Assembly (NCBI RefSeq): GCF_025144465.1 | Contig: NZ_CP083553.1 | Coordinates: 1,920,001-1,984,000, forward strand | Source: Leisingera sp. S132 | GTDB lineage: Bacteria > Pseudomonadota > Alphaproteobacteria > Rhodobacterales > Rhodobacteraceae | Reading direction: 5' to 3' | DNA length: 64,000 nt | Shown here: positions 8,476-64,000 of the stretch, piece after piece | Position numbering within the stretch: the first letter of the stretch is position 1 | How the letters are laid out: each line of letters starts with the position of its first letter | Notes under the pieces: model-generated | Databases searched by the model: none | Told to the model about the DNA's origin: nothing | Seen by the model: the letters and a program-made list of their open reading frames with translations, nothing else | Made by a program: the position numbers and the translations under genes

Positions 8476-9009
8476 ATGCGCATTTTCGCCCTGGCCGCCG
8501 CCTTGATCCTGCCTGTTGCTGCCCTTGCTGCCAGCGGCAACGACTGGAACCCGCCGAAACCCTCCGAGACCACCAAGACTTGCAAAGGCAAGCGGGTGTG
8601 GGACGAGGAAAAGAAACGCTGCGTGCGGCCGCGGAAATCCTCGCTGAATCAGGAAGGGCTGCTGGATGCGGTCCGGGAACTGGCCTATGCCGGACGCCAG
8701 GAGGACGCCCAGGCGGTGCTGAGCGCATTGGCTGACCAGAACGACAGCATGGTGCTGACCTATTGGGGCTTCACCCACCGCAAGCTGGGCAATCAGGACC
8801 TGGCGCAGGCCTATTATGATCAGGCGCTGGCGCAAGACCCTGACAACATCCTGGCGCGCTCCTACATGGGCCAAGGCTTTGTTGAACAGGGAAATTACGG
8901 CGCAGCGCTTGCTCAATGGAAGGAAATCCGCGCCCGTGGCGGCGACGGCAGCTGGGCCGAGGCCTCGTTGCGCAGCGCGCTGGAGACGGGCACCTCCTAC
9001 AGCTACTAG
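8476..9009 (+). CDS. Secreted tetratricopeptide-repeat protein
   Basis: 177 residues beginning at ATG 8476 (GGAGTG upstream). Residues 1-20 are a signal peptide (MRIFALAAALILPVAALA, cut near AAS). A Cys-containing short linker TCKGKRVWDEEKKRC follows, then about three TPR units from residue 60 onward (LAYAGRQEDAQAVL, YWGFTHRKLGNQDLAQAYYDQAL, ARSYMGQGFVEQGNYGAALAQW). TPR units mediate protein contacts, so it is probably a periplasmic scaffold. The partner is unknown. It lies 76 bases upstream of the FliG-domain gene, with no evidence that they share a role. Confidence 0.8.
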   Translation: MRIFALAAALILPVAALAASGNDWNPPKPSETTKTCKGKRVWDEEKKRCVRPRKSSLNQEGLLDAVRELAYAGRQEDAQAVLSALADQNDSMVLTYWGFTHRKLGNQDLAQAYYDQALAQDPDNILARSYMGQGFVEQGNYGAALAQWKEIRARGGDGSWAEASLRSALETGTSYSY

Positions 9010-9085
9010 GCTTCAGCCTTTCTTTACGGCTTGCGGCCTATCCTGCCCCTGAATGATTGAGAAGAATCTTTTCTAGGGTGCGAGA

Positions 9086-10276
9086 ATGCCTCAAGACGAT
9101 ATGCTGGCGCTTCCGATGGATCTGGGCGGGGGCGACATGGGCGGAATGGGCGGTATGGACATGGGCGATTTCGCCGCTCCGGCGCCTCTGGGCGGCTTGG
9201 ACGCAGGCGGCTTCGGCGGAGGTATGGGCGGCGGTGCGCTGGCCAATCCCGCAGCAGCCTCTGGCCTCAGCGGCAAGGCGAAGGCCGCCATCATCGTCCG
9301 GCTGCTGCTGAACGAAGGCGCTGAAATCCCGCTGGAGGAACTGCCCGACGACCTGCAGCTGGAACTGACCCAGCAGATGGGCCGGATGCGGATTGTCGAC
9401 CGGGATACGCTGAATTCCGTCGCAGGTGAATTTGCTGATTTGCTCGACAATGTCGGCCTGCATTTTCCCAACGGGCTGGCAGGCGCCCTCAGCGCGATGG
9501 AAGGCAAGATCAGCCGCCACACCCATACCCGCCTGCGCCGCGAGGCCGGGGTGCGCCAGTTCGGCGACCCCTGGGAGCGGCTGAAGCAGCTGCCGCCTGA
9601 GGATCTGGCTGAACTGGCCCAGGCCGAAAGCACAGAGGTTGCCGCCGTGCTGTTATCCAAGCTGGATACCGCAAAGGCGGCCCAGATGCTGATCCATCTG
9701 CCTGGGCCGGTGGCGCGCCGCATCACCTATGCTGTCAGCCAGACCGCCAATGTGACGCCGGACACGGTGGACCGCATCGGCCTGTCTCTCGCTGCCCAGG
9801 TGGAGGCGCGGCCTGATCTTGCCTTTGACCAGACACCAGGCCAGCGCCTGGGCGCCGTCCTGACCGAGGCTGCCGCAGCCAAGCGCGATGAGGTGCTGAC
9901 AGCACTGGACGAGGAGGACGAGGAATTCGCCGTTTCCGTGCGCAAGGCAATCTTCACGTATGCGCTGGTCTCCGAACGGATGAAACCGCTGGACGTGCCC
10001 AAGCTGATCCGGGTTCTGTCCCAGCCGGATCTGGTGACCGCCATCGCCTTTGCCACCGACGAGGAAGATGTCGCCACCTCCGAGTTTCTGCTCAAGAACA
10101 TGTCGAGCCGGATGGCCGACAACATCCGCGAGGAAGTGGCCGAGCGCGGCAAGGTCAAACGCAGCGATGGCGAGGCAGCCTACAGCCTGATTATCAGCGC
10201 CATGCGCGATCTGGTTGCCACCGGCGAAATTGAACTCAAGTCTCTGGAGGAAGACGAAGAGCAAGGCAGCGGCTGA
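9086..10276 (+). CDS. FliG-domain protein (flagellar motor switch FliG homologue)
   Basis: 396 residues. Residues 1-60 are an unusual Gly/Met/Asp-rich low-complexity leader (GGGDMGGMGGMDMGDF). From about 65 onward the protein is all helical and the C-terminal third matches FliG_C: PKLIRVLSQPDLVTAIAFA, then FLLKNMSSRMADNIREEV, then AYSLIISAMRDLVATGEI. FliG couples the rotor to the MotA/B stator. No other flagellar gene is visible here, so this is either the organism's FliG kept outside the main flagellar cluster or a paralogue. The charged rotor residues expected near the stator interface cannot be judged by eye. Confidence 0.7.
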   Translation: MPQDDMLALPMDLGGGDMGGMGGMDMGDFAAPAPLGGLDAGGFGGGMGGGALANPAAASGLSGKAKAAIIVRLLLNEGAEIPLEELPDDLQLELTQQMGRMRIVDRDTLNSVAGEFADLLDNVGLHFPNGLAGALSAMEGKISRHTHTRLRREAGVRQFGDPWERLKQLPPEDLAELAQAESTEVAAVLLSKLDTAKAAQMLIHLPGPVARRITYAVSQTANVTPDTVDRIGLSLAAQVEARPDLAFDQTPGQRLGAVLTEAAAAKRDEVLTALDEEDEEFAVSVRKAIFTYALVSERMKPLDVPKLIRVLSQPDLVTAIAFATDEEDVATSEFLLKNMSSRMADNIREEVAERGKVKRSDGEAAYSLIISAMRDLVATGEIELKSLEEDEEQGSG

Positions 10277-10434: not shown

Positions 10435-11367
10435 ATGCCCGCAGATCCTTCCGAGCTCTCCACCTGGAGCCATGTCAAATACTTTGGCAGCAACCTGTTC
10501 CTGCGCGGCCTACTGCTGGGCGCCGGACTGATACCCTATCGCTTGCGGGTGCCTATGATGGGCCGCCTGGTCACTGCCATGGGCCGGCTGGCGCGGTTTG
10601 ACAAGCGGGTGCGCGACAACCTGAACCTTGTCAGCCCGGAACTGTCGGACCTGGACCCGGCTGACCTGTACCGCGATGTCAGCGACAACGCCGGCCGGAT
10701 GATTGCGGAAATTTACGCTGGCAAGCCCTTTCACGAACGGGCCAAGTCCGCGCCGATCACCGGTCCCGGCCTGATAGCGCTGGAAACCGCCCGGGCTGAC
10801 GGCCGGCCCGTGCTTCTGGCGACCGCCCATTTCGGCAACTACGATGCGGCCCGCGCCGCGCTTGTGGCCCGCGGCCACGAAATGGGCGCCCTGTACCGCC
10901 GGATGGCCAACCCGTATTTCAACGAACATTATGTTGACGCCATCAAAAAGAACGGCGAGCCGATGTTCGAACAGGGCAAGCGCGGCATGGTGGAACTGGT
11001 GCGCCACCTGAAGAAAGGCGGCATCGCTGCTATTGTCACGGATCTGCATGCCCAGGGCGGCCAGCTGGTGGATTTTTTCGGCAAGCCGGCCGTCACATCC
11101 ACCGTGCCTGCAGAACTGGCGTTGAAATTCGGCGCTGCGCTGATTCCGGTTTACGCCGTGCGGCAGGAAAACGGTCTGGATTTCGAGATCGTCATGAACG
11201 CCGAGGTTCCGCCGTCGGATCCGTTGACCATGACCAAGGCTCTGAGCGCAGATCTGGAAGCGATTGTCCGCGAACACACCGGGCAGTGGTTCTGGATTCA
11301 CCGCCGCTGGAAACCTTATGTGCCGGTCGGCAAGGCGGCCCGGCAGTCAGATAGCCCGGTAGACTGA
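10435..11367 (+). CDS. LpxL/HtrB-family lipid A acyltransferase
   Basis: 310 residues. The family transfers secondary acyl chains to lipid A precursors at the inner membrane. The motif ATAHFGNYD is the HX4D-type catalytic site expected of these enzymes (His and Asp near residues 127-131), and LVRHLKKGGIAAIVTDLHAQGG and WFWIHRRWKP match the later conserved blocks, including the C-terminal HRRWK signature. An N-terminal hydrophobic stretch (LFLRGLLLGAGLIPY) would anchor it. The gene is monocistronic and convergent with the DUF1223 gene, only 9 bases away. A lysophospholipid or ornithine-lipid acyltransferase role is the main alternative. Confidence 0.85.
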   Translation: MPADPSELSTWSHVKYFGSNLFLRGLLLGAGLIPYRLRVPMMGRLVTAMGRLARFDKRVRDNLNLVSPELSDLDPADLYRDVSDNAGRMIAEIYAGKPFHERAKSAPITGPGLIALETARADGRPVLLATAHFGNYDAARAALVARGHEMGALYRRMANPYFNEHYVDAIKKNGEPMFEQGKRGMVELVRHLKKGGIAAIVTDLHAQGGQLVDFFGKPAVTSTVPAELALKFGAALIPVYAVRQENGLDFEIVMNAEVPPSDPLTMTKALSADLEAIVREHTGQWFWIHRRWKPYVPVGKAARQSDSPVD

Positions 11368-54329: not shown

Positions 54330-55352
<1,023 letters not shown>

Positions 55353-55399
55353 GCCATCTGCCCATTCTCAGTCTGTTTTTGCTTGTTTTTGCCCATTTT

Positions 55400-55450
55400 G
55401 TCGGATTAGAACAACAAAAGTTGTCCCGTTTTCAAAAAAGTTGTTCCGAC
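55400..55450. promoter_or_regulatory. Inverted-repeat cluster upstream of the integrase
   Basis: ACAAC-AAAA-GTTGT at 55411-55424 and a further arm GTTGTTCCGAC at 55440-55450, the reverse complement of which (GTCGGAACAAC) is nearly matched by GTCGGA at 55400-55405 and AACAAC at 55410-55415. This nested dyad sits directly before the integrase ATG and could be its operator or an integrase arm site. Confidence 0.4.
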
Positions 55451-56542
55451 ATGGCCCATATTATCGAGCGCAAGCGCAAAGACGGTTCCTCCGCCTATCT
55501 CGCACAGATTGCCATCAAAAGAAAAGGTCAATGGGCACACCGCGAATCCCGAACATTCGACAAGAAGTCCGCCGCAAACGCTTGGCTGAGGAAGCGTATG
55601 AAGGAAATCGAAGCAGCGGGCGATGACCTTCGGAAGATCAAAGCCAAGGGGAAAACCCTACGAGACGCGCTAGACAAATACCTTGACACCGCAGGCGACA
55701 AGATAGGCGCCACAAAGACCCAGGTGCTTCGCACCATCAGGGATGAATATGATCTTTCCGACAAAGAGGCAGACGAGATCCAAAGCAGCGACATTGTGCA
55801 GTTTGCCCAAGAGATCGCTGCACGTCCGGGCGTAGCCTCTGCCGCCACGGTGCAAAACTACCTCTCCCACCTATCGGCCGTTTTCCGCATTTCGCGCTCC
55901 GCCTGGAGCATCCCCCTAGACTACCTAGCCATGCAGGAGGCGATGCACGCCTGCAAGCGCCTGCAGATCACTGCTAAGTCAAGATCAAGGGACCGTCGAC
56001 CAACCTTGGGCGAATTGGAGGCCCTGCTGGCCCACTTCATGGAAGCCACGGCAGCGAACCCGCGCACGATGCCCATGCATAAGGTGACACTGTTCGCCCT
56101 TTTCTCAAGCCGCCGCGAATCCGAAATCACGCGCGCAAGATGGGACGGGCTGGATAAAGAGCATTCCCGGGTGTTCGTGAAGGACATGAAGCATCCAGGA
56201 CAAAAGGTCGGGAACGACGTGTGGTGCGATCTGCCGGAGCAAGCCCTAAAAATTGCAAAGTCCATGCCCCGGAAGGATGAACGGGTTTTCCCCTTCAACC
56301 CCGATACCATCTGCACACGGTTCACCCGCGCTTGCAAACTTCTGCAGATAGAAGACCTGCGATTTCATGATCTACGGCACGAAGGCATTTCCCGGCTCTT
56401 TGAGATGGGCAATTCAATTCCGCAGGTTGCTGCAGTCTCCGGCCACCGCTCATGGGCCTCACTGCAGCGGTACACCCACCTCCGCCAAACAGGGGATAAG
56501 TACGAGGGCTGGGAATGGATTGACAGAGTGTGCCAAGCATGA
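55451..56542 (+). CDS. Tyrosine integrase (dusA-type)
   Basis: 363 residues from ATG 55451. It carries an N-terminal DNA-binding part (MAHIIERKRKDGSSAYLAQI), a SAM-like core-binding domain and the catalytic domain. Catalytic residues are visible: Arg in FSSRRESEITRARW, His-x-x-Arg in FHDLRHEGISRLFE, His in VSGHRSWASLQRY and the nucleophile Tyr in QRYTHL. Expected role is site-specific integration and excision of the element at dusA. The stop overlaps the start of the next small gene by four bases. Confidence 0.92.
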   Translation: MAHIIERKRKDGSSAYLAQIAIKRKGQWAHRESRTFDKKSAANAWLRKRMKEIEAAGDDLRKIKAKGKTLRDALDKYLDTAGDKIGATKTQVLRTIRDEYDLSDKEADEIQSSDIVQFAQEIAARPGVASAATVQNYLSHLSAVFRISRSAWSIPLDYLAMQEAMHACKRLQITAKSRSRDRRPTLGELEALLAHFMEATAANPRTMPMHKVTLFALFSSRRESEITRARWDGLDKEHSRVFVKDMKHPGQKVGNDVWCDLPEQALKIAKSMPRKDERVFPFNPDTICTRFTRACKLLQIEDLRFHDLRHEGISRLFEMGNSIPQVAAVSGHRSWASLQRYTHLRQTGDKYEGWEWIDRVCQA

Positions 56543-56784
56543 AGGCCAAAGACTATCCGCTGCCGATGGTCGAAATAGCCTGCGATTTCTGCGGGCGACA
56601 TGGCAAATACAGAAAGAGCAGGTTCATTGAATTGGTCGGCGAGAACACCGAACTGCCGCAAGCGCTTTCTATCATCGCTGCCGACTGCTCAGAGGATCGA
56701 GTTACCCCCGACAACATGCGCGGGCGCTGCCGCCCCTTCTATGCGCAAAACTGGTGGGGCGCTGCCAGCAAGGAACCGAGCTGA
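56539..56784 (+). CDS. Small zinc-ribbon-like phage protein
   Basis: 81 residues, coupled to the integrase stop by ATGA. A CDFCGRHGKYRK motif near residue 15 gives a CxxC pair and a basic stretch, and later Cys residues occur in ADCSED and RGRCRPFYAQNWWG, so a zinc-binding or DNA-binding fold is plausible. Proteins of this type (Cx2C near the N terminus, W-rich C terminus) recur in rhodobacteral prophages; the role is unknown. Reading direction is the same as the integrase. Confidence 0.65.
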   Translation: MKAKDYPLPMVEIACDFCGRHGKYRKSRFIELVGENTELPQALSIIAADCSEDRVTPDNMRGRCRPFYAQNWWGAASKEPS

Positions 56785-56846
56785 CCCCGCCCCCCTTTTT
56801 TCTGGATTTGCATAGGCTCTTCCTCAAGGCGCCCTGAAAGCAATTG

Positions 56847-57659
56847 CTAGGCTTGCGGGCTGATCCAATCATCCAACTCTTCGAAGCGTTGAAAGTTCGT
56901 GATAACTGTCTCCACAAGATGAACCATATCTGAAAGAAACTTAACTATGGGCAAGCGCAAGGGGTCCATCGTCGCAACCGCTTCAATTTGATCAGCCCCC
57001 TGGACAGAATCAACCGGGAACTCAGCCTCAATCACCTTAAAAACACCACCTCTCCGCACACCTTCGAGAAAAAACGTCACCTTAGGCATGTGAGCCTCCT
57101 CCTCAGAAAAAAACTTAAGTGCCATGTTGGTATCGAGCTGAGAAGGAACTCTAAATGAAACAGAAAGTTGCCTGTGTTTATCTCTGTTGCTGATGAGCGA
57201 CAAATGTTGGAATGGGTTCCCTTCGTATCCGTCCCAACCCACATTCTTCCTAAATGGTTGCAAGTGCAAGAAAAGCTGAAAATATTTTTTGTGGCAGCTC
57301 TGCTGTATCAGCTTAACACCCCTATTACGGTTCCATCGTTCCTCGCTTTCGAATGCTGGAAAAAACAGTTTTCGCTTCTCTTCTGCGGTGAGATTGGGGT
57401 TTGCAGATGTAACAATCTGGTAGGTCAAATTATCCAAAACCGACCGCAAGTGATGTACTGCGGTTGACACCTCCAGGGAAACAGTCGTCCAATCATCATC
57501 ATTCTCCGACTTGAGCGACTGGGTTATTGTCTTTCTATCTTCAGAAAAAACAGTTTCAATTTTCATTTTGGACAACCCGTCCAAACGGAGCTGAATGGCT
57601 TCAATCACCGACTTGCAGTAATCCAACCGCTTGAACAGCACGGGAAAATCAACGTTCAA
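56847..57659 (-). CDS. Helical cargo protein with DKHR motif
   Basis: 270 residues from a TTG start at 57659, chosen because AAAGGAGG lies eight bases upstream. The sequence is helical with the pattern HHLRSVLDNLTYQIV, then LFFPAF, LQPF and NRDKHRQLSVSF. This R-x-x-LD..LQPF..DKHR arrangement belongs to a recurring family of uncharacterised bacterial proteins that I think of as HEPN-like. No catalytic assignment is made. It is the last gene of the leftward six-gene cassette; composition is more AT-rich than the chromosome around it. A nuclease or regulator role is possible but unproven. Confidence 0.6.
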   Translation of the reverse strand: MNVDFPVLFKRLDYCKSVIEAIQLRLDGLSKMKIETVFSEDRKTITQSLKSENDDDWTTVSLEVSTAVHHLRSVLDNLTYQIVTSANPNLTAEEKRKLFFPAFESEERWNRNRGVKLIQQSCHKKYFQLFLHLQPFRKNVGWDGYEGNPFQHLSLISNRDKHRQLSVSFRVPSQLDTNMALKFFSEEEAHMPKVTFFLEGVRRGGVFKVIEAEFPVDSVQGADQIEAVATMDPLRLPIVKFLSDMVHLVETVITNFQRFEELDDWISPQA

Positions 57660-57688
57660 ATCAAACTCCTCCTTTGTTGGACTAAGCC

Positions 57689-58210
57689 CTACAATCTCTC
57701 TGGGAGTTTGAGATACGGGTTGAATATCTCGGTCAAACTATTGCTCGTGAACCTCGCGAATATTTTATCTTCAATATCAATTTGTTGCTCAAACAGTTCC
57801 GCACGTCTTTTCTCTTGCTCAGGCTTAATGACACCGCGCCGCAAGAGATCATCGAGACGCTCTATCCTTGCCTCCGCGCGCACGTAACTGAAAGACGCAT
57901 CAATTAGCCACTTTACTTCCCGATCGATGTCGCCCCCAAAGATGAAGGGAACCTTCCTAGCAACACCCAGCACTTTTGCCGTCGCCTCGCGGCCAGGCCG
58001 CCCGTGAATTGCAGCATCTTCCAAGAATTCCTTTAGCGCGAAGTAGACTTTCAACCTCTTCTCATGCAGAGCGAACTTGTAGTTCGCGTCGGCGACCTGC
58101 TTCTCGTGTTTGTGCTGATTAAATTGAAGCACGAACATTCCAAAAGTCAGGCAAGCGACAGCAAGTGTGGCACAGGTTGAAACACCAATAAAAATGAGCT
58201 CTGTTGACAA
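57689..58210 (-). CDS. Single-pass membrane protein, unknown
   Basis: 173 residues from a TTG start at 58210 with AAAGGAGAGG upstream. Residues 5-28 form a membrane segment (LIFIGVSTCATLAVACLTFGMFVLQF), followed by a His/Lys-rich helix (NQHKHEKQVADANYKFALHEKRLKVYFALKEFLED) and a coiled-coil C-terminal half. It would place a cytoplasmic helical domain at the inner membrane. No family recognised. It sits 29 bases upstream of the DKHR-motif gene and 36 bases downstream of the DUF2971 gene, in the same cassette. Confidence 0.65.
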   Translation of the reverse strand: MSTELIFIGVSTCATLAVACLTFGMFVLQFNQHKHEKQVADANYKFALHEKRLKVYFALKEFLEDAAIHGRPGREATAKVLGVARKVPFIFGGDIDREVKWLIDASFSYVRAEARIERLDDLLRRGVIKPEQEKRRAELFEQQIDIEDKIFARFTSNSLTEIFNPYLKLPERL

Positions 58211-58246
58211 CTCCAGCCTCTCCTTTCTTGGTTTCTCAAATACCGA

Positions 58247-59071
58247 TCAGATGAATGGTATCTGAGATTTTTGAACTCGGGGGCAATCTACCCGCTCCAG
58301 CCGAAAATAGTTTTCAAGAAAACGCTCGACTTTACCGTGGTTCGTCTTAGGGCCGGTCATGATAGAATCGATGGCCAAAGGCCTTGAAAGCCCCTCAAAC
58401 ACTTCACAATCAGGTAGAACCAAGGGTAACTCCCTTCGGTACTCCCCGCCAATCAGCTTAAACTGTGAGCCCCCAATCGCGCTTACAGTACCGCTGCATG
58501 TCATTCGGTATTCCGCCTCAACCTCGAAATGCGGGCTCTTAATGAGCTTCGTAAACTCCATCAAAAAACGCGAAAGCTCCAGGTGCCTTTGTGCACTATC
58601 TTCATACAATACGTGAGGTAATTCCCCCAAGAAGGAGGCACCCGGCGTGTATTCGCACCGACTAGGTCCTTGAAATTGGTAAGCCCCTCCGAGCTCAGCC
58701 AAGTCTACGCTTGAAAATCCGATCGCAACAGACTGCCCGCCGTGAGCGAGACTGCTGTACCCTCGCCACATAGATAGGTCGTCTGCGGCCGCAGAAAAAC
58801 ACAAAACTTGCCCGTTCAACCTCTCCTCGACGTCCATCAGAGCCGTTTCAATTTCCTGGTCCGTAGTCCCAAAAATGGTCGAGAACCTACCGCCCCAATC
58901 AACGAGAAAATCCCTGATAGACTGCAATCCCACCTTAAATTCTTGCGAGTCATTTAGGGCGCGAAAATCGGACGCCAGAAGCGACTTGGTCTCTAGGATC
59001 TTTTCGAGAACCTCGAAAGTCGTGTAGTGCCATAAGGTTGTTGGCACATTCGGCTTGCCTCCTGTTATCAC
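58247..59071 (-). CDS. DUF2971 family protein
   Basis: 274 residues from GTG 59071 (AAAGGAGAG upstream). The family's marks are present: LWHYTTFEVLEKILETKSLLASDFRALNDSQEF at the N terminus, VLCFSAAADDLSMWRGYS in the middle (the FCFS...d..MW..Y block) and FEVEAEYRM toward the C terminus. DUF2971 proteins recur in mobile elements and are of unknown activity; the W-x-Y-T...NDxxEF start is the usual one. The central gene of the cargo operon. Confidence 0.82.
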   Translation of the reverse strand: MITGGKPNVPTTLWHYTTFEVLEKILETKSLLASDFRALNDSQEFKVGLQSIRDFLVDWGGRFSTIFGTTDQEIETALMDVEERLNGQVLCFSAAADDLSMWRGYSSLAHGGQSVAIGFSSVDLAELGGAYQFQGPSRCEYTPGASFLGELPHVLYEDSAQRHLELSRFLMEFTKLIKSPHFEVEAEYRMTCSGTVSAIGGSQFKLIGGEYRRELPLVLPDCEVFEGLSRPLAIDSIMTGPKTNHGKVERFLENYFRLERVDCPRVQKSQIPFI

Positions 59072-59096
59072 TATCCCATCTCTCCTTTGTTGGATT

Positions 59097-59366
59097 TTAG
59101 AACCACCGAACTATCGACGCGATCATCACGACCAGAACGATGATTGTAACCGCAGCCCCTAAGGGGTTCCTGTAAACGACCCGCCTATTCTGAATAGGTC
59201 GGTAACCCGGTCGACCAGCCTCAACATCTTTAACCAAGTTCAAGTCCCAAAGCAGATGGCGCACCCCAACATACATCGCAAAAATTACAAGGATGAGGAA
59301 GTTGCCGACAAACAGAACCGGCGAAAGGACCAAAGCCAAAATCGATTTGAAAAGATCGCGTATCAT
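59097..59366 (-). CDS. Small membrane protein, two segments
   Basis: 89 residues from ATG 59366 (AAAAGGAG upstream). Hydrophobic segments at about residues 9-35 (ILALVLSPVLFVGNFLILVIFAMYV) and 70-87 (AAVTIIVLVVMIASIVRWF) flank a short basic loop DVEAGRPGYRPIQNRRVVYR. It would span the inner membrane twice. No family recognised. Between DUF2971 and the thermonuclease gene, with 25-base and 23-base gaps. Confidence 0.6.
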   Translation of the reverse strand: MIRDLFKSILALVLSPVLFVGNFLILVIFAMYVGVRHLLWDLNLVKDVEAGRPGYRPIQNRRVVYRNPLGAAVTIIVLVVMIASIVRWF

Positions 59367-59389
59367 CTTCCGCCACTCCTTTTGTGAAC

Positions 59390-59788
59390 TTACCGGCAGT
59401 AACGCGCCCGTCGCAGCCGCGATTTCGCGGCAGGTGTCTCATAGCGCCGATACCGGCCGCCCGAGTACCGCTGACAGTCCAGGGCGTGACCGGCGGCTAT
59501 GACAGCGGCGCCGATGTCAACCCCGTCCGCATAGCAAACACCGACGTGCCGGTCATGTGTCCGCTCACCACTCAAACGGCACTCAACCGATTTGCCAACG
59601 AGATAGTTGACCATCCAGCGGCGGGCGTCTTTACCGGCGCCGGTGTCCAGCTCTGGCGCGTCCACCCCTTGCAATCGAACCGGCGTCCCGCTCACGACGA
59701 TAGTGTCAGCATCGCGCACCCTCAACCCACCAGCCCAAAGGGGCGGCGCAAGAACCGCGAATACCAGCAAGATCAATGAAAGCCGCAC
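59390..59788 (-). CDS. Secreted thermonuclease-like protein (SNase fold)
   Basis: 132 residues from GTG 59788. A signal peptide (MRLSLILLVFAVLAPPLWA) precedes the nuclease core. The catalytic residues known from Staphylococcus nuclease line up: Arg and Glu in VRLQGVDAPEL (R35 and E43 spacing of eight) and Arg in HDRHVGVCYADG at the R87 place. The family cleaves DNA or RNA with Ca2+. Two extra cysteines may form a disulfide. Its position in a phage cargo operon is notable; the protein is exported to periplasm. Confidence 0.82.
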   Translation of the reverse strand: MRLSLILLVFAVLAPPLWAGGLRVRDADTIVVSGTPVRLQGVDAPELDTGAGKDARRWMVNYLVGKSVECRLSGERTHDRHVGVCYADGVDIGAAVIAAGHALDCQRYSGGRYRRYETPAAKSRLRRARYCR

Positions 59789-59798
59789 ACCTTGCTCC

Positions 59799-60389
59799 TT
59801 AGTTGGCCCCTATCCGAACTGCGCCAGTTTTCCCTTGACCAGGGAGAGCTATAGAACAGGCCCAAATTGTCTGATCAGGCAAGGTTATGTAGTGGCACTG
59901 CAGATGTAGCCAAATCTTTTCAATAGCCTCTGCAATCAATCTGAGGTCAGCCTGCCCGTACTTTCGACCTTGTTCGATTTTACGTAGCGTCAGGGCATGG
60001 AGGTAGTCCCCGCACTTGCCATGCACAGATTTGACGTACTCAGGCGATATCTCAGGTGTCAGGTCGATGAGATGAAGCCCTGAAACTTCCCTAACCAGCC
60101 TTGAGCGTCGGGGAAAGAAATCGCCATTAAGGGTACTAAGTGTCGCCGCCAAGTCCTTTGGGAAAAACTTCCGAGACAACGCATTGTACTCATCGACACC
60201 CTCCAAATGCGGGATCGCAAGGGCCACAGAAAGCCCTTCACAAATCAATCGCAAGTTTAGGTAGCAGCTTTCCGTTGCAAAGCTCAAATTGTCCGGAGGG
60301 AATGTCTCGCCCTTGAGGGTCCTTTTCACAAAAAAAACCCGGTCTCTGATGTTATCCATCATACCCGGATAGTAACTCTCAAAATTCAC
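59799..60389 (-). CDS. Helical cargo protein, first gene of the cassette
   Basis: 196 residues from GTG 60389 with GGGAGCTGGAGA just upstream. Mostly helical, with SFATESCYLNLRLICEGLSVALAI, RKFFPKDLAATLSTLNGDFFPRRSRLV and HGKCGDYLHALTLRKIEQGRKYG. The Cys-Gly-x-x-x-HA pattern recurs in other uncharacterised bacterial proteins. No catalytic motif assigned. It opens the leftward operon; its stop is 10 bases from the thermonuclease start. The 140 bases upstream should hold the operon promoter. Confidence 0.55.
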   Translation of the reverse strand: MNFESYYPGMMDNIRDRVFFVKRTLKGETFPPDNLSFATESCYLNLRLICEGLSVALAIPHLEGVDEYNALSRKFFPKDLAATLSTLNGDFFPRRSRLVREVSGLHLIDLTPEISPEYVKSVHGKCGDYLHALTLRKIEQGRKYGQADLRLIAEAIEKIWLHLQCHYITLPDQTIWACSIALPGQGKTGAVRIGAN

Positions 60390-60529
60390 TCTCCAGCTCC
60401 CTGAGTGCTCATTTCATACACTTTCTTTGCCCTCTGAAGGCGTGCTCCTTTTTCAGGTCGCGGGGGAAGGGCCTTGCATCCCCGCCCCCCGCTCAATCCC
60501 CAGCGCAAGGTTCGCGCCGAGGCGTCTCC

Positions 60530-61018
60530 TTACTTGGATTTCTGTTTCCGGTGGGCGCTCTGGTGCTTGGCATTCGCCATCAGCTTCACACCCTCATAGA
60601 ATTCCGTCATGTCGTCGCCCTTCTGGTACAGCGCCGGGCCATTGTCTTTGACCGAATGTACGTAGACCACCAGGCCCGCATCAAACAGCGCCTCAACTGT
60701 GCTGCGCGCGTGCTTTTCAGAGAACCCGACGCACAGCGAATTTGCAAAGAAAACCTGATCCCCGACGTGCTGCATACGGTTCACCTTGTCCAGAAACACG
60801 CCGCGCTCTATCAGCTTAGCCGGCCAATTGGTGGTGCGCTTGACGTGGCGCACATCATCGACAAAAAGGGCTGACACATCTTCCGCGCCAAGGGTGCTTT
60901 CATCCACCCCCCAGGCGCGCGAACGGGCGATCTGCTCAGACCGAGACGGCAACCACGGATGCACGGTCACAATCGACCACTTGCCAGAAAACCTGCCTGC
61001 TTTCTTATCGTCCGACAC
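60530..61018 (-). CDS. Unknown phage protein, possible resolvase-like fold
   Basis: 162 residues. The order of elements (KWSIVTVHPWLPSRSEQIARSRAWG, LFVDDVRHVKR, LIERGVFLDKVNRMQHVGDQVFFANSLCVGF, then TVEALFDAGLVVYVHSVKD) loosely follows the catalytic fold of serine resolvases (GD-x-V ... S ... L-x-x-G), but the catalytic Ser/Arg pattern is not clear, so this is a weak hint only. It starts in the divergent gap with the repeats at 61043-61106. It could be a regulator or recombination factor. Basic C terminus KHQSAHRKQKSK. Confidence 0.45.
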   Translation of the reverse strand: MSDDKKAGRFSGKWSIVTVHPWLPSRSEQIARSRAWGVDESTLGAEDVSALFVDDVRHVKRTTNWPAKLIERGVFLDKVNRMQHVGDQVFFANSLCVGFSEKHARSTVEALFDAGLVVYVHSVKDNGPALYQKGDDMTEFYEGVKLMANAKHQSAHRKQKSK

Positions 61019-61042
61019 GGCGCTGCCTTTTCTTACTCTTTT

Positions 61043-61106
61043 CTTATTTCGTAGGGAAAAGGCTTGCTCGCGTCAACTGTACACATTATCTTACATCGTA
61101 GAGAAA
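61043..61106. promoter_or_regulatory. Paired 17-bp direct repeats in divergent gap
   Basis: CTTATTTCGTAGGGAAA at 61043-61059 and CTTACATCGTAGAGAAA at 61090-61106, identical at 14 of 17 positions and about 47 bases apart. They lie between two divergent genes (start 61018 leftward, 61134 rightward), the usual place for phage repressor or activator sites. Confidence 0.55.
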
Positions 61107-61133
61107 GTTTCCAGAAACCGCCCGGAGGCCGAA

Positions 61134-61487
61134 ATGGCGACGCTTTTTCCTGCCAAGCACGACAAGCAGCCGCACTGCCGCTACTGCGGCGCGAAGCTGC
61201 GCAAGTGGATTGAGTGGGTCGAGTTCGGCCCGAAGGCGGAAGATCAACCGCGGACGAAAGAAGAAGCCAATCGCCGGACTAACCGTAAGATCGTCCATTA
61301 CACATGGGGCGGCCCCGAAGGCGACAGGCGCATAGTTCGCGTGTCGACCTGGGACGGCGAGAGATACCAGGGCGGCTACTTCTGCAAGATCCAGTGCGCC
61401 GTAGATTTCGCTTTCCTCTTTGCCGAGCAAGGCCGCGAGACCGTCACTCACCAAAAAGCCATCGCGTATCAGCGCGAAAATCCATAA
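61134..61487 (+). CDS. Small cysteine-rich phage protein
   Basis: 117 residues from ATG 61134 (GGAGG at 61124-61128). A Cx2C pair (HCRYCGAKLRKW) near residue 16 and a second (GYFCKIQCAVDF) near residue 84 could hold one zinc. Between them is a charged stretch. Unknown family. It is first of three rightward genes. Confidence 0.55.
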   Translation: MATLFPAKHDKQPHCRYCGAKLRKWIEWVEFGPKAEDQPRTKEEANRRTNRKIVHYTWGGPEGDRRIVRVSTWDGERYQGGYFCKIQCAVDFAFLFAEQGRETVTHQKAIAYQRENP

Positions 61488-61504
61488 ACCGCCGGGAGAC
61501 TGAC

Positions 61505-61840
61505 ATGGCATGCATCCTGAAGAAATATGAGGTGACCGTGCAGGGATACGGCGCTGGCCAGTTCTATGCCAAGAACAAGAACCAGGCGCGCGTTCGAGCA
61601 TTCCGCTCACTGCAGAACGTGAATGACCGGATCACTTTCAAAAGCTTCCTGAAGATCGTCGGCAACATCGCGCTGCAGGAAGCCCCAGACGGTTTCGGTG
61701 CGCCCATTTTGGTCAACGGGAAGCCCGCGCATTTCCTTGAGCATGCTGGCGGAAATTCAATCCGCTTTTGCTACCCGGACAGCGACACGATGCTGATCGT
61801 CCATGAACTGGACGTGTCTGAAGCCGAAACCATCCAGTAA
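61505..61840 (+). CDS. Small phage protein
   Basis: 111 residues from ATG 61505 with GGGAGA upstream. Sequence MACILKKYEVTVQGYGAGQFYAKNKNQARVRAFRSL has a beta-strand plus helix start and the C terminus ends in acidic DVSEAETIQ. No family recognised. It lies 17 bases after the previous gene, probably in one operon. Confidence 0.5.
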   Translation: MACILKKYEVTVQGYGAGQFYAKNKNQARVRAFRSLQNVNDRITFKSFLKIVGNIALQEAPDGFGAPILVNGKPAHFLEHAGGNSIRFCYPDSDTMLIVHELDVSEAETIQ

Positions 61841-61854
61841 ACGCCGGAGACAAC

Positions 61855-62121
61855 ATGCCACAGCACGTTAAAATCAATGATCGCTACGAACACATCCCGG
61901 ATACCGGAACTCACTGGCGCATCCTTGATACCGATAATGAGTGGGATGAGGTTCGGATCCCGAAACGGTTCGCGCCGCTGCCTGAGGTCGCGGTGGAGCT
62001 ACTGGAGTACGTCGCGGAAAGGCAGGAGGTGGCCATGAGGGCGGGCTTCGAAAGTGGTCGCCGCTCATTGCAATATGACCTGCGCAAGTTGTTGGGCGCA
62101 GCGCCTAACCCTCAATCCTAA
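61855..62121 (+). CDS. Small phage protein
   Basis: 88 residues from ATG 61855 (GCCGGAGACAAC upstream). Acidic first half (YEHIPDTGTHWRILDTDNEWDEVRIPKRF) then a helix-rich second half ending RRSLQYDLRKLLGAAP. No family recognised. Third gene of the rightward group; a bidirectional terminator follows. Confidence 0.5.
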   Translation: MPQHVKINDRYEHIPDTGTHWRILDTDNEWDEVRIPKRFAPLPEVAVELLEYVAERQEVAMRAGFESGRRSLQYDLRKLLGAAPNPQS

Positions 62122-62143
62122 AACCGCCGCCCCCGAAACGACA

Positions 62144-62175
62144 AAAGCCCCGGCGCAAACCGGGGCTTTCCTTTT
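62144..62175. terminator. Bidirectional terminator between convergent phage genes
   Basis: AAAGCCCCGG-CGCAAA-CCGGGGCTTT (10-bp stem) followed by CCTTTT on the + strand and an A-run turned T-run on the minus strand. It separates the rightward small genes from the leftward late module. Confidence 0.88.
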
Positions 62176-62191
62176 GTCCTGCAGTGCGGCT

Positions 62192-62566
62192 TTAGGCGTC
62201 AGGCTCGATCCGCTGCAGCCCATGCGCTGCAATCAGCGTGTCGAACTGCTCAGCCGGGTCTGTGCTGCTGGCCGGGCCGGTCACCACAACCAGGTGATCC
62301 GCAACGGCCTGCCAGTCGCCCGGAGCCAAGCCGTCTGGCCACGCCATTCCGGGCGGCAGGCCAGGGGCAAAAGACAGCACATGCAGAAACGCGTCAGTTT
62401 CCTTGGTTGAAGCCCCCTTGTGCGTGGCCTCCCCGGCCCCGTCGGGTGATAGCTCAACAATAAAGTTCTGCCCGCTGCGGCCAAGTGCATTTGCAGCCCG
62501 GTTGCAGGCCTCCGCGTGCTCAATTGGCGCCAGGAAGGCGATGCGGTTGGTGTACAGGGTGGTCAT
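62192..62566 (-). CDS. Phage late-module protein, unknown
   Basis: 124 residues. Overlaps the upstream gene by four bases (ATGA). Begins MTTLYTNRIAFLAPIEHAEACNRAANALGRSGQNFIVEL, with alternating strand and helix character and a Gly/Pro-rich middle (FAPGLPPGMAWPDGLAPGDW). Last gene before the terminator. Similar short genes follow phage spike genes in related genomes; role unknown. Confidence 0.6.
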   Translation of the reverse strand: MTTLYTNRIAFLAPIEHAEACNRAANALGRSGQNFIVELSPDGAGEATHKGASTKETDAFLHVLSFAPGLPPGMAWPDGLAPGDWQAVADHLVVVTGPASSTDPAEQFDTLIAAHGLQRIEPDA

Positions 62567-63384
62567 ACCGTTACCCCGAAGTATGCGGCCACCTGCTGCT
62601 GCTGCGTTGCCGTAAGGGGGGCGGAAACGATCACGGCACCAACCATGTTGTTGCGCAGCACATCATAGTTGTCAGCCATTACCACGCCTTCATCCGCGAT
62701 CAGCGCGCCATCCGCAGCGATGTAGGCGGAAAATGTTCCGGTCAGCGGTGCAATCAGGGAGTCGTCGCCATCGTCGGCCAGCGTCCTGTCGGCTTGGTAT
62801 GTCGCGCGGGCAGCATCTGCGGGAGCAAGGCAGTGTTTACCCGCGACGGTGCGCAAAGAAAGGCCGCTCACTGTTCCGGTAAAGCTTGTCTTGTTCAGAT
62901 TGAAAAGTTGCGGGCGGGCTGACCCTGACGCCTTGAAGATAGCCCTATGGCTCCCGTCCCCAGTGAAGCTGCCCAAGAAGTTATTGTCCCCATCGAACAA
63001 ATTCAGGCTATCCGCGCCTGACCCTGCAATGGTCAACTGAAGTTCCCCGAATTCCCCAGCAGATAGCCCCATGACGTTAAGGGTGCCGTTCAAGCCTTGG
63101 GCCGTGAAAGAGCCATCGCCGTTGTCTGTCCAGTTCACGGCAGTAACGGGGTTTTCTTCGAAGAAGTTGACGCCTCGGGCCAAGCCCCGCGATTTGTCCA
63201 GACCAAGCTTCACAAGGTCGCCAGAGGGGGCAGACGGCAGTATGCCCGCCGCGTCCTGAAACAACGTCGAGGTGTCGCGCCAGTCCAGAAACAGACCCTG
63301 CGCACCACCGGCGAACAGATCCACTGGCGTGAAGGGACGGCGGCACACCGCCGCCGTCATTACCGAAAGCCCATTGCCGAGCAT
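62563..63384 (-). CDS. Phage spike / tail-associated protein
   Basis: 273 residues from ATG 63384, whose TGATG overlap with the upstream stop supports this start; a GTG at 63393 is the alternative. The beginning LDWRDTSTLFQDAAGILPSAPSGDLVKLGLDKSRG belongs to a recurring phage structural pattern (..W.D.S....FQD.AG..P....g..v....DkS.g). The rest is Gly/Asp/Ser-rich beta structure (GDGSFTAQGLNGTLNVMGLSAGEFGELQLTI), with a C-terminal TATQQQQVAAYFGV. It is probably a tail or head spike protein. Confidence 0.65.
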   Translation of the reverse strand: MLGNGLSVMTAAVCRRPFTPVDLFAGGAQGLFLDWRDTSTLFQDAAGILPSAPSGDLVKLGLDKSRGLARGVNFFEENPVTAVNWTDNGDGSFTAQGLNGTLNVMGLSAGEFGELQLTIAGSGADSLNLFDGDNNFLGSFTGDGSHRAIFKASGSARPQLFNLNKTSFTGTVSGLSLRTVAGKHCLAPADAARATYQADRTLADDGDDSLIAPLTGTFSAYIAADGALIADEGVVMADNYDVLRNNMVGAVIVSAPLTATQQQQVAAYFGVTV

Positions 63385-63647
63385 CAGTACCACCCAACTA
63401 CGGTTGCCGTGGTGCCGGTTGCCTCCACCCCGACCGCAGAGAACCCGATGGTTTCGCCCGCCAGAACAGGGTAGACGATGACGGTCCCCCCCTCGTCACG
63501 CAAGGCAAGGTCGCCCGCGGTGAGAACACGCAGGACTCGCGGCCTGGGCGACAGGTCGGCACCGTCTTGCGGGGCGATTGAGAAATGATGCGTCGCCGGG
63601 CTTTCCAAGCCGCGCATCCAACCGTCAAAGGGGTCGCTTTGAGGCAT
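63384..63647 (-). CDS. Spike base protein, RCAP_Rcc01079 family
   Basis: 87 residues. The sequence matches the base protein of head spikes found in the Rhodobacter gene transfer agent and in related phages: DPFDGWMRGLESPATHHFSIAPQDGADLSPRPRVLRVLTAGDLALRDEGG, then AGETIGFSAVGVEATGTTATVVGWY. Its stop shares TGATG with the next gene. It anchors spikes to the capsid in the model GTA. A clear pointer to a rhodobacteral phage. Confidence 0.8.
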   Translation of the reverse strand: MPQSDPFDGWMRGLESPATHHFSIAPQDGADLSPRPRVLRVLTAGDLALRDEGGTVIVYPVLAGETIGFSAVGVEATGTTATVVGWY

Positions 63648-63679
63648 TTTCGTTCCTTTCTTTGTTAAATTCGGAGGAA

Positions 63680-63928
63680 TTACTGCGGGCCTGCCGCGCT
63701 GAGAATTTCAGCAATTGCGGCAAGCTTGGCGTTGGCACAGGCCCGCCCCCGGGCCTCTGCTATCAGCGCGTCGGAATGGTGGCCCTCATTTTGCGGGAGA
63801 GGGCCAGTATAGCCAGCACAGAACTCCAGCAAATCGGCCGGCACAGGTGGCGGCTGTTTTGCAGGTTCAGGGTTGAACCAGGTACAGCCGCTCAGAAGTA
63901 GCGCGCAGCAAAGGTGACAAAGGCGCAT
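63680..63928 (-). CDS. Outer-membrane spanin Rz1 (lipoprotein)
   Basis: 82 residues from ATG 63928. The first 17 residues MRLCHLCCALLLSGCTW form a lipoprotein signal with lipobox LLSGC, followed by a Pro-rich stretch PEPAKQPPPVPADL typical of Rz1. Its first 20 codons lie inside the last codons of the upstream Rz gene in a different frame, the classic Rz/Rz1 nesting. Rz1 and Rz bridge the membranes and fuse them at lysis. Confidence 0.8.
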   Translation of the reverse strand: MRLCHLCCALLLSGCTWFNPEPAKQPPPVPADLLEFCAGYTGPLPQNEGHHSDALIAEARGRACANAKLAAIAEILSAAGPQ

Positions 63929-64000
63929 CGCGGCCCTCCATGGATTGCAAGTCACGGGAAAGCGCGTCCCAGCGGCGGTATTCCTCCGCCGCGCGCGCCA
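63867..64000 (-). CDS. Inner-membrane spanin Rz, C-terminal part
   Basis: The frame enters from the right edge and stops at 63867. The visible end reads ARAAEEYRRWDALSRDLQSMEGRDAPLSPLLRATSERLYLVQP. The charged helix and the RDAPLSPLLR ending match phage Rz proteins. It overlaps the Rz1 gene in a different frame by 62 bases. The membrane anchor lies outside the window. Confidence 0.72.
   Translation of the reverse strand, partial: ARAAEEYRRWDALSRDLQSMEGRDAPLSPLLRATSERLYLVQP

Follow-up and report, generated by a model that had tools for sequence, protein, structure and literature searches.

A candidate array of single-gene cassettes linked by a 14-bp joint in a dusA prophage of Leisingera sp. 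S132

Introduction

The entry and exit of single accessory genes in temperate phages, without harm to their neighbors, is mostly unexplained. The question is raised by six small leftward genes of Leisingera sp. S132 (Alphaproteobacteria, Rhodobacteraceae), which lie beside a dusA integrase in a 64,000-nucleotide (nt) stretch of contig NZ_CP083553.1 (positions 1,920,001 to 1,984,000); we call this whole stretch the window and count coordinates from its first letter. An earlier note on this DNA regarded the six genes as a cargo operon and a candidate for an undescribed system, whose products could cooperate at the cell surface. Do these genes act as a unit, or were they brought together one by one and, if so, by what means? 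Comparison of the window with related prophages, designated here by our own handles for genomes (G) and for loci or contigs (L), points to the second answer: they probably represent six single-gene cassettes in one orientation, linked into an array by a recurring joint sequence in a slot of a dusA prophage and exchanged by crossovers within the AAAGGAG part of that joint.

In the mechanism that we propose, each unit would end in GTCCANN and begin with AAAGGAG, so that the joint between two units reads GTCCANNAAAGGAG. As the right half of the joint is the Shine-Dalgarno sequence of the next gene, an incoming unit would presumably be translated at once. Sequence comparison shows that relatives have gained, lost, and reordered units, one at a time or a few in a row, and the exchange would be catalyzed by a serine recombinase encoded, in many relatives, at the array head, with its stop codon in or against the first joint. 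Since the genome of the window lacks this recombinase, we infer its catalytic role from the sequences of relatives; since the joints of the window are, in addition, partly degenerate, this copy has probably become fixed, or else is rearranged in trans. The cargo itself would consist of independent accessory genes. If this is true, insertion and expression are solved in one step by a site with the two roles of recombination joint and ribosome-binding site, and the joint and recombinase together offer a sequence handle for listing prophage accessory genes, including likely defense and counter-defense genes.

Results

A 14-bp joint recurs at the boundaries of the cargo genes

The six minus-strand cargo open reading frames (ORFs) are present as the earlier note had described them, running opposite to the integrase with gaps of 10-36 nt. 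Minus-strand ORFs of at least 85 amino acids (aa), six in number, cover 3402 nt here, against a mean of 339 and a maximum of 1419 nt in 200 shuffles of the same bases. What that note had not recorded is a 14-bp repeat at the gene junctions, GTCCANNAAAGGAG, of which six copies with at most two mismatches lie within 2.9 kb (57669-60539). Five of these supply Shine-Dalgarno sequences, lying 6-10 nt upstream of the starts of the 270-, 173-, 274-, 89-, and 132-aa genes. The window as a whole has seven matches at this threshold, six of them within that interval (binomial 5e-8); the total is not above that of shuffled sequence (mean 4.2, with 14 of 100 shuffles reaching 7), and it is thus the clustering alone that is unusual.

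Counted over the window, G014, and the two elements of G004, a joint with at most two mismatches precedes 17 of 34 cargo ORFs as against 0 of 172 other ORFs, and one with at most three precedes 23/34 as against 12/172. When an AAGGAG before a start is used as the anchor, a TCC at the set offset is found for 16 of 27 cargo anchors and for one of 32 controls, or, with similar genes counted once, for 10/21 cargo anchors and 1/30 controls. Because the motif was discovered in those same loci, these ORF and anchor counts describe more than they test. Forward sites number 1.8 per kb in seven array regions, compared with 0.13 per kb on both strands of non-array DNA, and within the genus GTCCANNAAAGGAG has 37 matches in 13 of 21 genomes versus 16 for a reversed control. 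In IMG/VR, the exact 14-mer occurs in at least 120 stretches, two of which have three or more start-associated copies; most of these stretches have a single copy, probably due to chance. Two further candidates were rejected as background, namely GTCCAGGAAAGGAG before a gene that we take to be insertion-sequence-like and GTCCATCAAAGGAG before another that is presumably aldehyde-dehydrogenase-like.

Units are gained, lost, and reordered between joints in related prophages

In related prophages, the joints part unrelated genes, nearly always in one orientation, with 4 to 13 forward and 0 to 2 reversed joints in each of ten array regions. Of 224 ends of homology blocks, 62 fall within 5 bp of a joint, compared with a mean of 6.1 and a maximum of 15 in 500 random placements. 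The clearest comparisons involve nearly identical DNA. G011 and the IMG/VR prophage L200/L326 share flanking blocks of 99.7-99.8% identity; between them, a 154-bp unit bounded exactly by two joints is present in G011 but not in the other prophage, and further along G011 has an additional unit of 198 bp. The two blocks of 99.8% identity that G011 shares with L204 are arranged there in the opposite order, and one unit is present a second time in L204 (97.8%). The SNase unit is common to the window and G004 over its whole length between joints, and the DUF2971 gene, the fourth unit in the window, directly follows the head gene in L100 via a degenerate joint. The G011 array (L258) includes units of 154, 198, and 217 bp, which are too short for a clear gene and may hold very small proteins or RNAs. 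In the second G004 element (L057:9994-11231), a stretch of about 500 bp occurs twice with 99.8% identity, with a run of Ns at 10500-10599.

The position of the crossover can be approached by comparing joints that share only one neighboring unit. Among 81 joints, pairs that share the left unit but not the right (n=13) agree at all 14 positions in 13/13 cases. In pairs that share the right unit but not the left (n=10), positions 6 and 7 agree in 3/10 and 4/10, where 0.37 and 0.33 are the fractions expected for unrelated joints, and positions 8-14 agree in nine or ten. Positions 6-7 thus stay with the upstream unit in every informative pair, which places GTCCANN in the upstream unit and the break within AAAGGAG.

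A serine recombinase subfamily carries the joint at its end

A serine recombinase gene heads the array in six elements (G014, G004 twice, G011, L200/L326, and L204/L327); that of G014, on the minus strand at L047:11031-11693, encodes a Resolvase catalytic domain (PF00239, E 5.7e-41). The gene of this recombinase subfamily carries a joint at its end in other genera too. Thirteen loci were chosen by the recombinase only: two in G018 (C57 and C1), eight viral contigs (L328-L335), and three genomes among 390 of the order (G478, G030, and G497). L329 duplicates G018 C57 and L335 duplicates G478, leaving 11 distinct elements; L326 and L327 were excluded as contigs already found via the joint. At all 12 loci with DNA past the stop codon, the first joint starts at a position from 10 nt upstream to 2 nt downstream of the end of that codon; the contig of the thirteenth, L333, ends at the recombinase stop, and ten of the 11 distinct elements thus have a joint there.

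The strict site occurs three times in G018 C57 and once in G018 C1, and a forward match with no more than one mismatch occurs at least once in three of the eight viral contigs. At the stop itself, G018 C1 matches the strict pattern only, and L328, L330-L332, and G030 match only a relaxed pattern with the spacing one base shorter. Once fixed, the relaxed pattern matched at the recombinase stop in all three of G478, G030, and G497, one of them with five copies in 0.9 kb. In the six joint-bearing arrays found otherwise, it matches at the stop in four; the second G004 element has the strict pattern with two mismatches, and the first has neither. With 15 distant recombinases the relaxed pattern was found at the stop in none, and in the 6 kb following them forward start-associated matches to it occur at two and reverse ones at two (strict pattern with at most one mismatch: 0 forward, 2 reverse).

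Discussion

Weighing the alternatives

Several observations weigh against a cassette array exchanged at the joint. Half of the cargo ORFs lack a joint with at most two mismatches, the start of the 196-aa gene is not directly preceded by one, and the joint spacing is variable (13 nt in L328, L330-L332, G014, and G011). Family-wide, 31 of 295 genomes contain GTCCARNWAAGGAG, with 38 matches in total as against approximately 100 for the pattern read backward. The genome of the window has no recombinase of the subfamily at E 1e-20, nor do G001, G015, and G020, in which parts of the system are present. The conserved 14 bp are short for a small serine recombinase. Some of the comparisons are also constrained by how they were assembled: the arrays of G011, G020, G015 C13, L200, and L204 were fetched because a joint was present, the crossover pairs are drawn from four left and five right groups, and the relaxed pattern was set after three loci had been inspected, so that the clean forward test consists of the three genomes G478, G030, and G497, one of which repeats the L335 element. 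As joints lie at gene boundaries, the block-end test cannot part site-specific exchange from whole-gene selection, and the run of Ns beside the repeated stretch of the second G004 element makes an assembly artifact possible there rather than a duplication.

A rival reading is ordinary phage mosaicism, in which the joint is a conserved strong translation start, homologous or annealing recombination acts at such linkers, and the recombinase has another job; the linker model of lambdoid phages is a parallel for mosaicism at short linkers. We regard this as a serious contender, if on balance a rather doubtful one. The right half of the joint is a plain Shine-Dalgarno sequence, Leisingera sp. S132 has an array without the recombinase, block ends at gene boundaries are what whole-gene selection predicts, and the start-associated sequences of cluster K mycobacteriophages have no stated role in recombination in the part of the source available (PMC3203893). 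Mosaicism accounts less readily for GTCCA, five conserved bases beyond the need of a Shine-Dalgarno sequence (TCC in 16/27 cargo cases versus 1/32 controls), for short units (154-217 bp) that have the same boundaries while containing little or no ORF, and for the failure of any informative pair to place a crossover in the left half of the joint. Further, where a gene of the recombinase subfamily occurs in other genera, a joint can be predicted at its stop codon, and this does not hold for distant recombinases.

Alternatively, the joint could be a regulatory site that couples the expression of accessory genes, with recombination playing no special part. The near-uniform orientation and the distance of 6-10 nt to the start in the window would fit such a site, and binding of a host or phage product is named as a possibility for the mycobacteriophage sequences in the available text (PMC3203893). 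This reading is unlikely in our estimate, as it leaves unexplained both why positions 6-7 follow the upstream unit and how whole units come to be inserted exactly between joints.

Taking joint-linked cassettes as the favored reading, we tentatively suggest, at a little less than even confidence, that tailed prophages of this bacterial family harbor a counterpart of the integron built on a serine recombinase. The array-head enzyme would take in, excise, and rearrange single-gene cassettes, the 14-bp site would make capture and expression one event, and the window would represent a settled array with a probable ADP-ribosyltransferase and other accessory genes. Integrons comprise arrays of gene cassettes recombined by IntI at attI and attC sites. 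Like these, the arrays described here consist of single genes in one orientation, separated by a short recurring site, with units that are gained or reordered and, in many relatives, a recombinase gene at the head. They differ in that the array-head enzyme of the relatives is a serine recombinase (Pfam Resolvase), whereas that of the integron is a tyrosine recombinase, and in that the joint is only about 14 bp long and supplies a ribosome-binding site. Further, the array is carried in a tailed prophage, and the copy in the window lacks a recombinase: its head is a 162-aa gene without a Pfam match, and the tyrosine integrase lies at the opposite end, at the dusA att site.

The joint also resembles the start-associated sequences of cluster K mycobacteriophages in being a short asymmetric motif with a ribosome-site core that lies upstream of starts, mostly in one direction; however, the sequence there is GGGATAGGAGCCC rather than GTCCANNAAAGGAG, the hosts are different, and the accessible part of that report mentions neither cassette exchange nor a linked recombinase (PMC3203893). 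In a literature search with most subscription journals outside its coverage, no description of such cassette arrays was found among the matches listed, judged by title and the start of the abstract, and none of the terms looked for is present in a paper on Rhodobacteraceae prophages (PMC8224337).

The six genes were not found together in other loci

The notion of a single cooperating six-gene defense or surface system, put forward in the earlier note, has in its favor the tight spacing, the single strand, and the similar ribosome sites of the genes, as well as the presence of two membrane proteins and a probably exported nuclease. That note had itself tied the idea to co-occurrence of the genes as a set, and not one of 98 fetched loci contained two of the six proteins. 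Genome searches returned the 196-aa protein from its own genome only (1/101), likewise the 270-aa protein (1/295), and the 173-aa protein from its own genome and, as a 26% match, from one other (2/337). Of 244 genomes of the order, 38 encode DUF2971 proteins; a first genome scan with the protein of the window had returned nothing. At ten DUF2971 loci of other named organisms, none of the other five genes lies in the DNA examined, and only in L100 does a relative of the 162-aa head gene stand beside DUF2971. Both SNase and DUF2971 are found with other neighbors, and the GC content varies from cassette to cassette. By the criterion of that note, the idea of a unit fails in the searches made; we consider a single system very improbable, and the genes are better taken as separately acquired cassettes with a common joint sequence. 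A pairing of DUF2971 with a single-pass membrane protein, considered for the window and L100, was likewise rejected as the two membrane proteins do not align.

The DUF2971 protein is a predicted ADP-ribosyltransferase

The assignment of the fourth cassette to DUF2971 in the earlier note is borne out by Pfam (PF11185, 23.7 bits against a gathering cut-off of 22). An AlphaFold2 model built from an eight-sequence alignment has a predicted TM-score (pTM) of 0.77. In a Foldseek search of PDB with this model, ranks 1-6 are DarT (E 7e-4 to 4e-3), followed by Tpt1 with E of at least 0.4. The VIA comparison gives DarT a Z of 9.0 (149 residues, 4.3 Å) and yeast Tpt1 one of 7.8 (112 residues, 3.2 Å); its first 20 rows are of the ADP-ribosyltransferase class throughout, TreTu among them being a protein that we take to belong to this class. 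Three residues, His15, Glu185, and Glu187, candidates for the NAD-binding histidine and catalytic glutamate, are invariant in the eight aligned sequences. A profile search of 177,635 PDB sequences to E 10 yielded a single match, a DarT with E 0.75, in which the WHYT stretch is aligned and which reaches the histidine stretch alone. Against this assignment stand the mean predicted local distance difference test score (pLDDT) of the model, 76, and its TM-scores to DarT, which are 0.37-0.51. In a viral structure library, the top matches of the model are unnamed or uncharacterized proteins.

The modeled fold suggests that the DUF2971 protein is most likely an ADP-ribosyltransferase deployed in phage-host conflict. 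It recalls the DarT of DarTG and Tpt1/KptA in its predicted fold and the aligned WHYT stretch; unlike DarTG, it belongs to the DUF2971 sequence family and has no macrodomain partner, with no DarG-like macrodomain found by Pfam among the cargo proteins and the 162-aa protein. In PADLOC, it matches three models of the candidate system PDC-S31 (best E 7.5e-6, weak and partial), a name that was not found in the literature searched. An anti-phage role is thus plausible for this one cargo gene, given its DarT-like predicted fold. In the literature searched, DUF2971 is named in a Halomonas reannotation alone; the predicted fold would give this family its first testable activity.

The candidate array occupies a variable slot of a dusA prophage

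The setting of the array is a dusA-associated prophage, with an integrase at the 5' end of dusA, att repeats, and structural genes (Table 1). Accessory cargo beside a dusA integrase had been recognized in the earlier note; that the element is a prophage extending beyond the window had not. According to ORFs and Pfam, the integrase gene abuts the 5' end of dusA, and the dusA-adjacent integrase of G014 is a 95% identical protein. The attL 11-mer TCCATCATCGG at 55273-55283 recurs, in window numbering, at 93723, where a probable attR shares it together with a partly matching flank, such that imperfect direct repeats of the dusA 5' region stand at both ends; other lone matches of the 11-mer are also present, and the choice of attR rests on the gene to the right of 93723. 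This TRAP-type gene (93866-95269) is next to dusA in G001 and G013 (97%), which makes the element about 38 kb long. G013 and G014 have a second copy of part of 55266-55309. The window end falls within the prophage, past which follow both terminase subunits, a head protease/capsid, tape measure, tail fiber, and endolysin.

These features parallel those described for dusA-associated integrases, namely an integrase at the dusA 5' end, imperfect att repeats, a new dusA 5' end, and mosaic cargo; 48 of 94 such islands were prophages, and the available part of that study mentions neither cassette joints nor a serine recombinase (PMC4482086). The six cargo genes occupy a variable slot with the integrase block on one side and the late genes on the other. 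DNA homology of the window with G014, and likewise with G004, ends at 56799/56800. The 84-aa ORF at the edge of the slot is 82-90% identical in G004 (two elements), G014, and G001 and 71% identical in G011. On the other side, the 162-aa head gene has a 44% relative immediately before the DUF2971 gene of the phage-bearing contig L100.

Table 1. Features in and around the candidate cassette array, in window coordinates
Feature	Coordinates	Strand	Remarks
dusA	54330..55352	-	5' end prophage-supplied; contains attL near 55266-55309
dusA-type tyrosine integrase	55379..56542	+	Pfam Phage_integrase, E 2.3e-16
84-aa ORF	56530..56784	+	kept at integrase-side slot edge in five elements
Degenerate terminal joint copy	56791..56807	-	homology of window with G014 and G004 stops here
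Cassette 6, 270-aa protein	56847..57659	-	HLRS and SNxDKHR stretches; no Pfam match over cut-off
Joint GTCCAACAAAGGAG	57669..57682	-	9 nt before 270-aa start
Cassette 5, 173-aa protein, single-pass membrane	57689..58210	-	one hydrophobic segment
Joint AACCAAGAAAGGAG	58220..58233	-	between cassettes 5 and 4
Cassette 4, DUF2971 protein, 274 aa	58247..59071	-	predicted DarT/Tpt1-like ADP-ribosyltransferase fold
Joint ATCCAACAAAGGAG	59082..59095	-	between cassettes 4 and 3
Cassette 3, 89-aa protein	59097..59366	-	two hydrophobic segments
Joint GTTCACAAAAGGAG	59376..59389	-	G004 homology block ends here
Cassette 2, SNase-domain protein, 132 aa	59390..59788	-	leader-like hydrophobic N-terminus
Joint GGCCAACTAAGGAG	59795..59808	-	G004 homology block begins here
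Cassette 1, 196-aa protein	59799..60389	-	136-nt leader after its joint
Joint ATCCAAGTAAGGAG	60526..60539	-	overlaps stop codon of 162-aa head gene
162-aa head gene	60530..61018	-	no Pfam match
Leftward late phage genes, start	62192..63955	-	spanin-like gene at 63680-63955

The other cargo genes and further occupants of the element

The protein features that had been noted by eye (the DKHR of the 270-aa protein, one hydrophobic segment in the 173-aa and two in the 89-aa protein, and the leader-like start of the SNase protein) are all present. The description of the cargo as AT-richer than the chromosome holds for five genes, with GC contents of 0.455 (270-aa), 0.487 (173-aa), 0.508 (DUF2971), 0.485 (89-aa), and 0.494 (196-aa), compared with 0.622 for positions 1-51000 and 0.608 for the phage backbone; it does not hold for the SNase gene, which at 0.637 is not AT-rich. 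The SNase domain scores 24.8 bits against a Pfam cut-off of 21. This protein has a 92% identical relative in G004 with other genes around it, its relatives have differing neighbors among the fetched loci, and a scan of viral contigs found one (69%) without joints nearby.

Distant relatives of the 270-aa protein are encoded on one plasmid of Streptomyces and one of Rhodococcus, and HLR and NxDKHR are conserved in them; the protein matches no Pfam family over the cut-off, and an AlphaFold2 model, made without an alignment with a possible HEPN fold in mind, reached a pLDDT of only 37.6. The single distant relative (26%) of the 173-aa protein lies beside an integrase-like ORF in G100. No relatives were identified for the 196-aa protein, nor for the 89-aa protein, which had no genome search of its own. 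Scans of viral contigs for close relatives of the 196-, 274-, 270-, and 173-aa proteins gave no match. Matches were likewise absent when viral sequences were scanned with a profile built on three members of the 270-aa family, when a phage collection was searched for the DUF2971 and 196-aa proteins, and when plasmids were searched for the 173-aa protein. Promoter and terminator scans gave sites not above shuffles, and Rfam over 55300-62300 gave three small RNA matches, all below the cut-off.

In G001, genes for a TrlF-type ATPase and a cytosine-5 DNA methyltransferase (L050:5149-7998 and 8753-10084) occupy the same prophage slot, in the orientation opposite to that of cargo elsewhere and with no joints before them; the slot thus also takes known defense-type genes, without a joint. 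At the integrase-side end of the G004 array lies a gene for an 819-aa protein (L049:4511-6970) with matches of the calcium-binding-repeat type below curated cut-offs. Judged by eye, two ORFs pointing rightward (L004; 89328-90578 in window numbering) toward the right end of the prophage resemble what we take to be a LuxR-type regulator and an autoinducer synthase.

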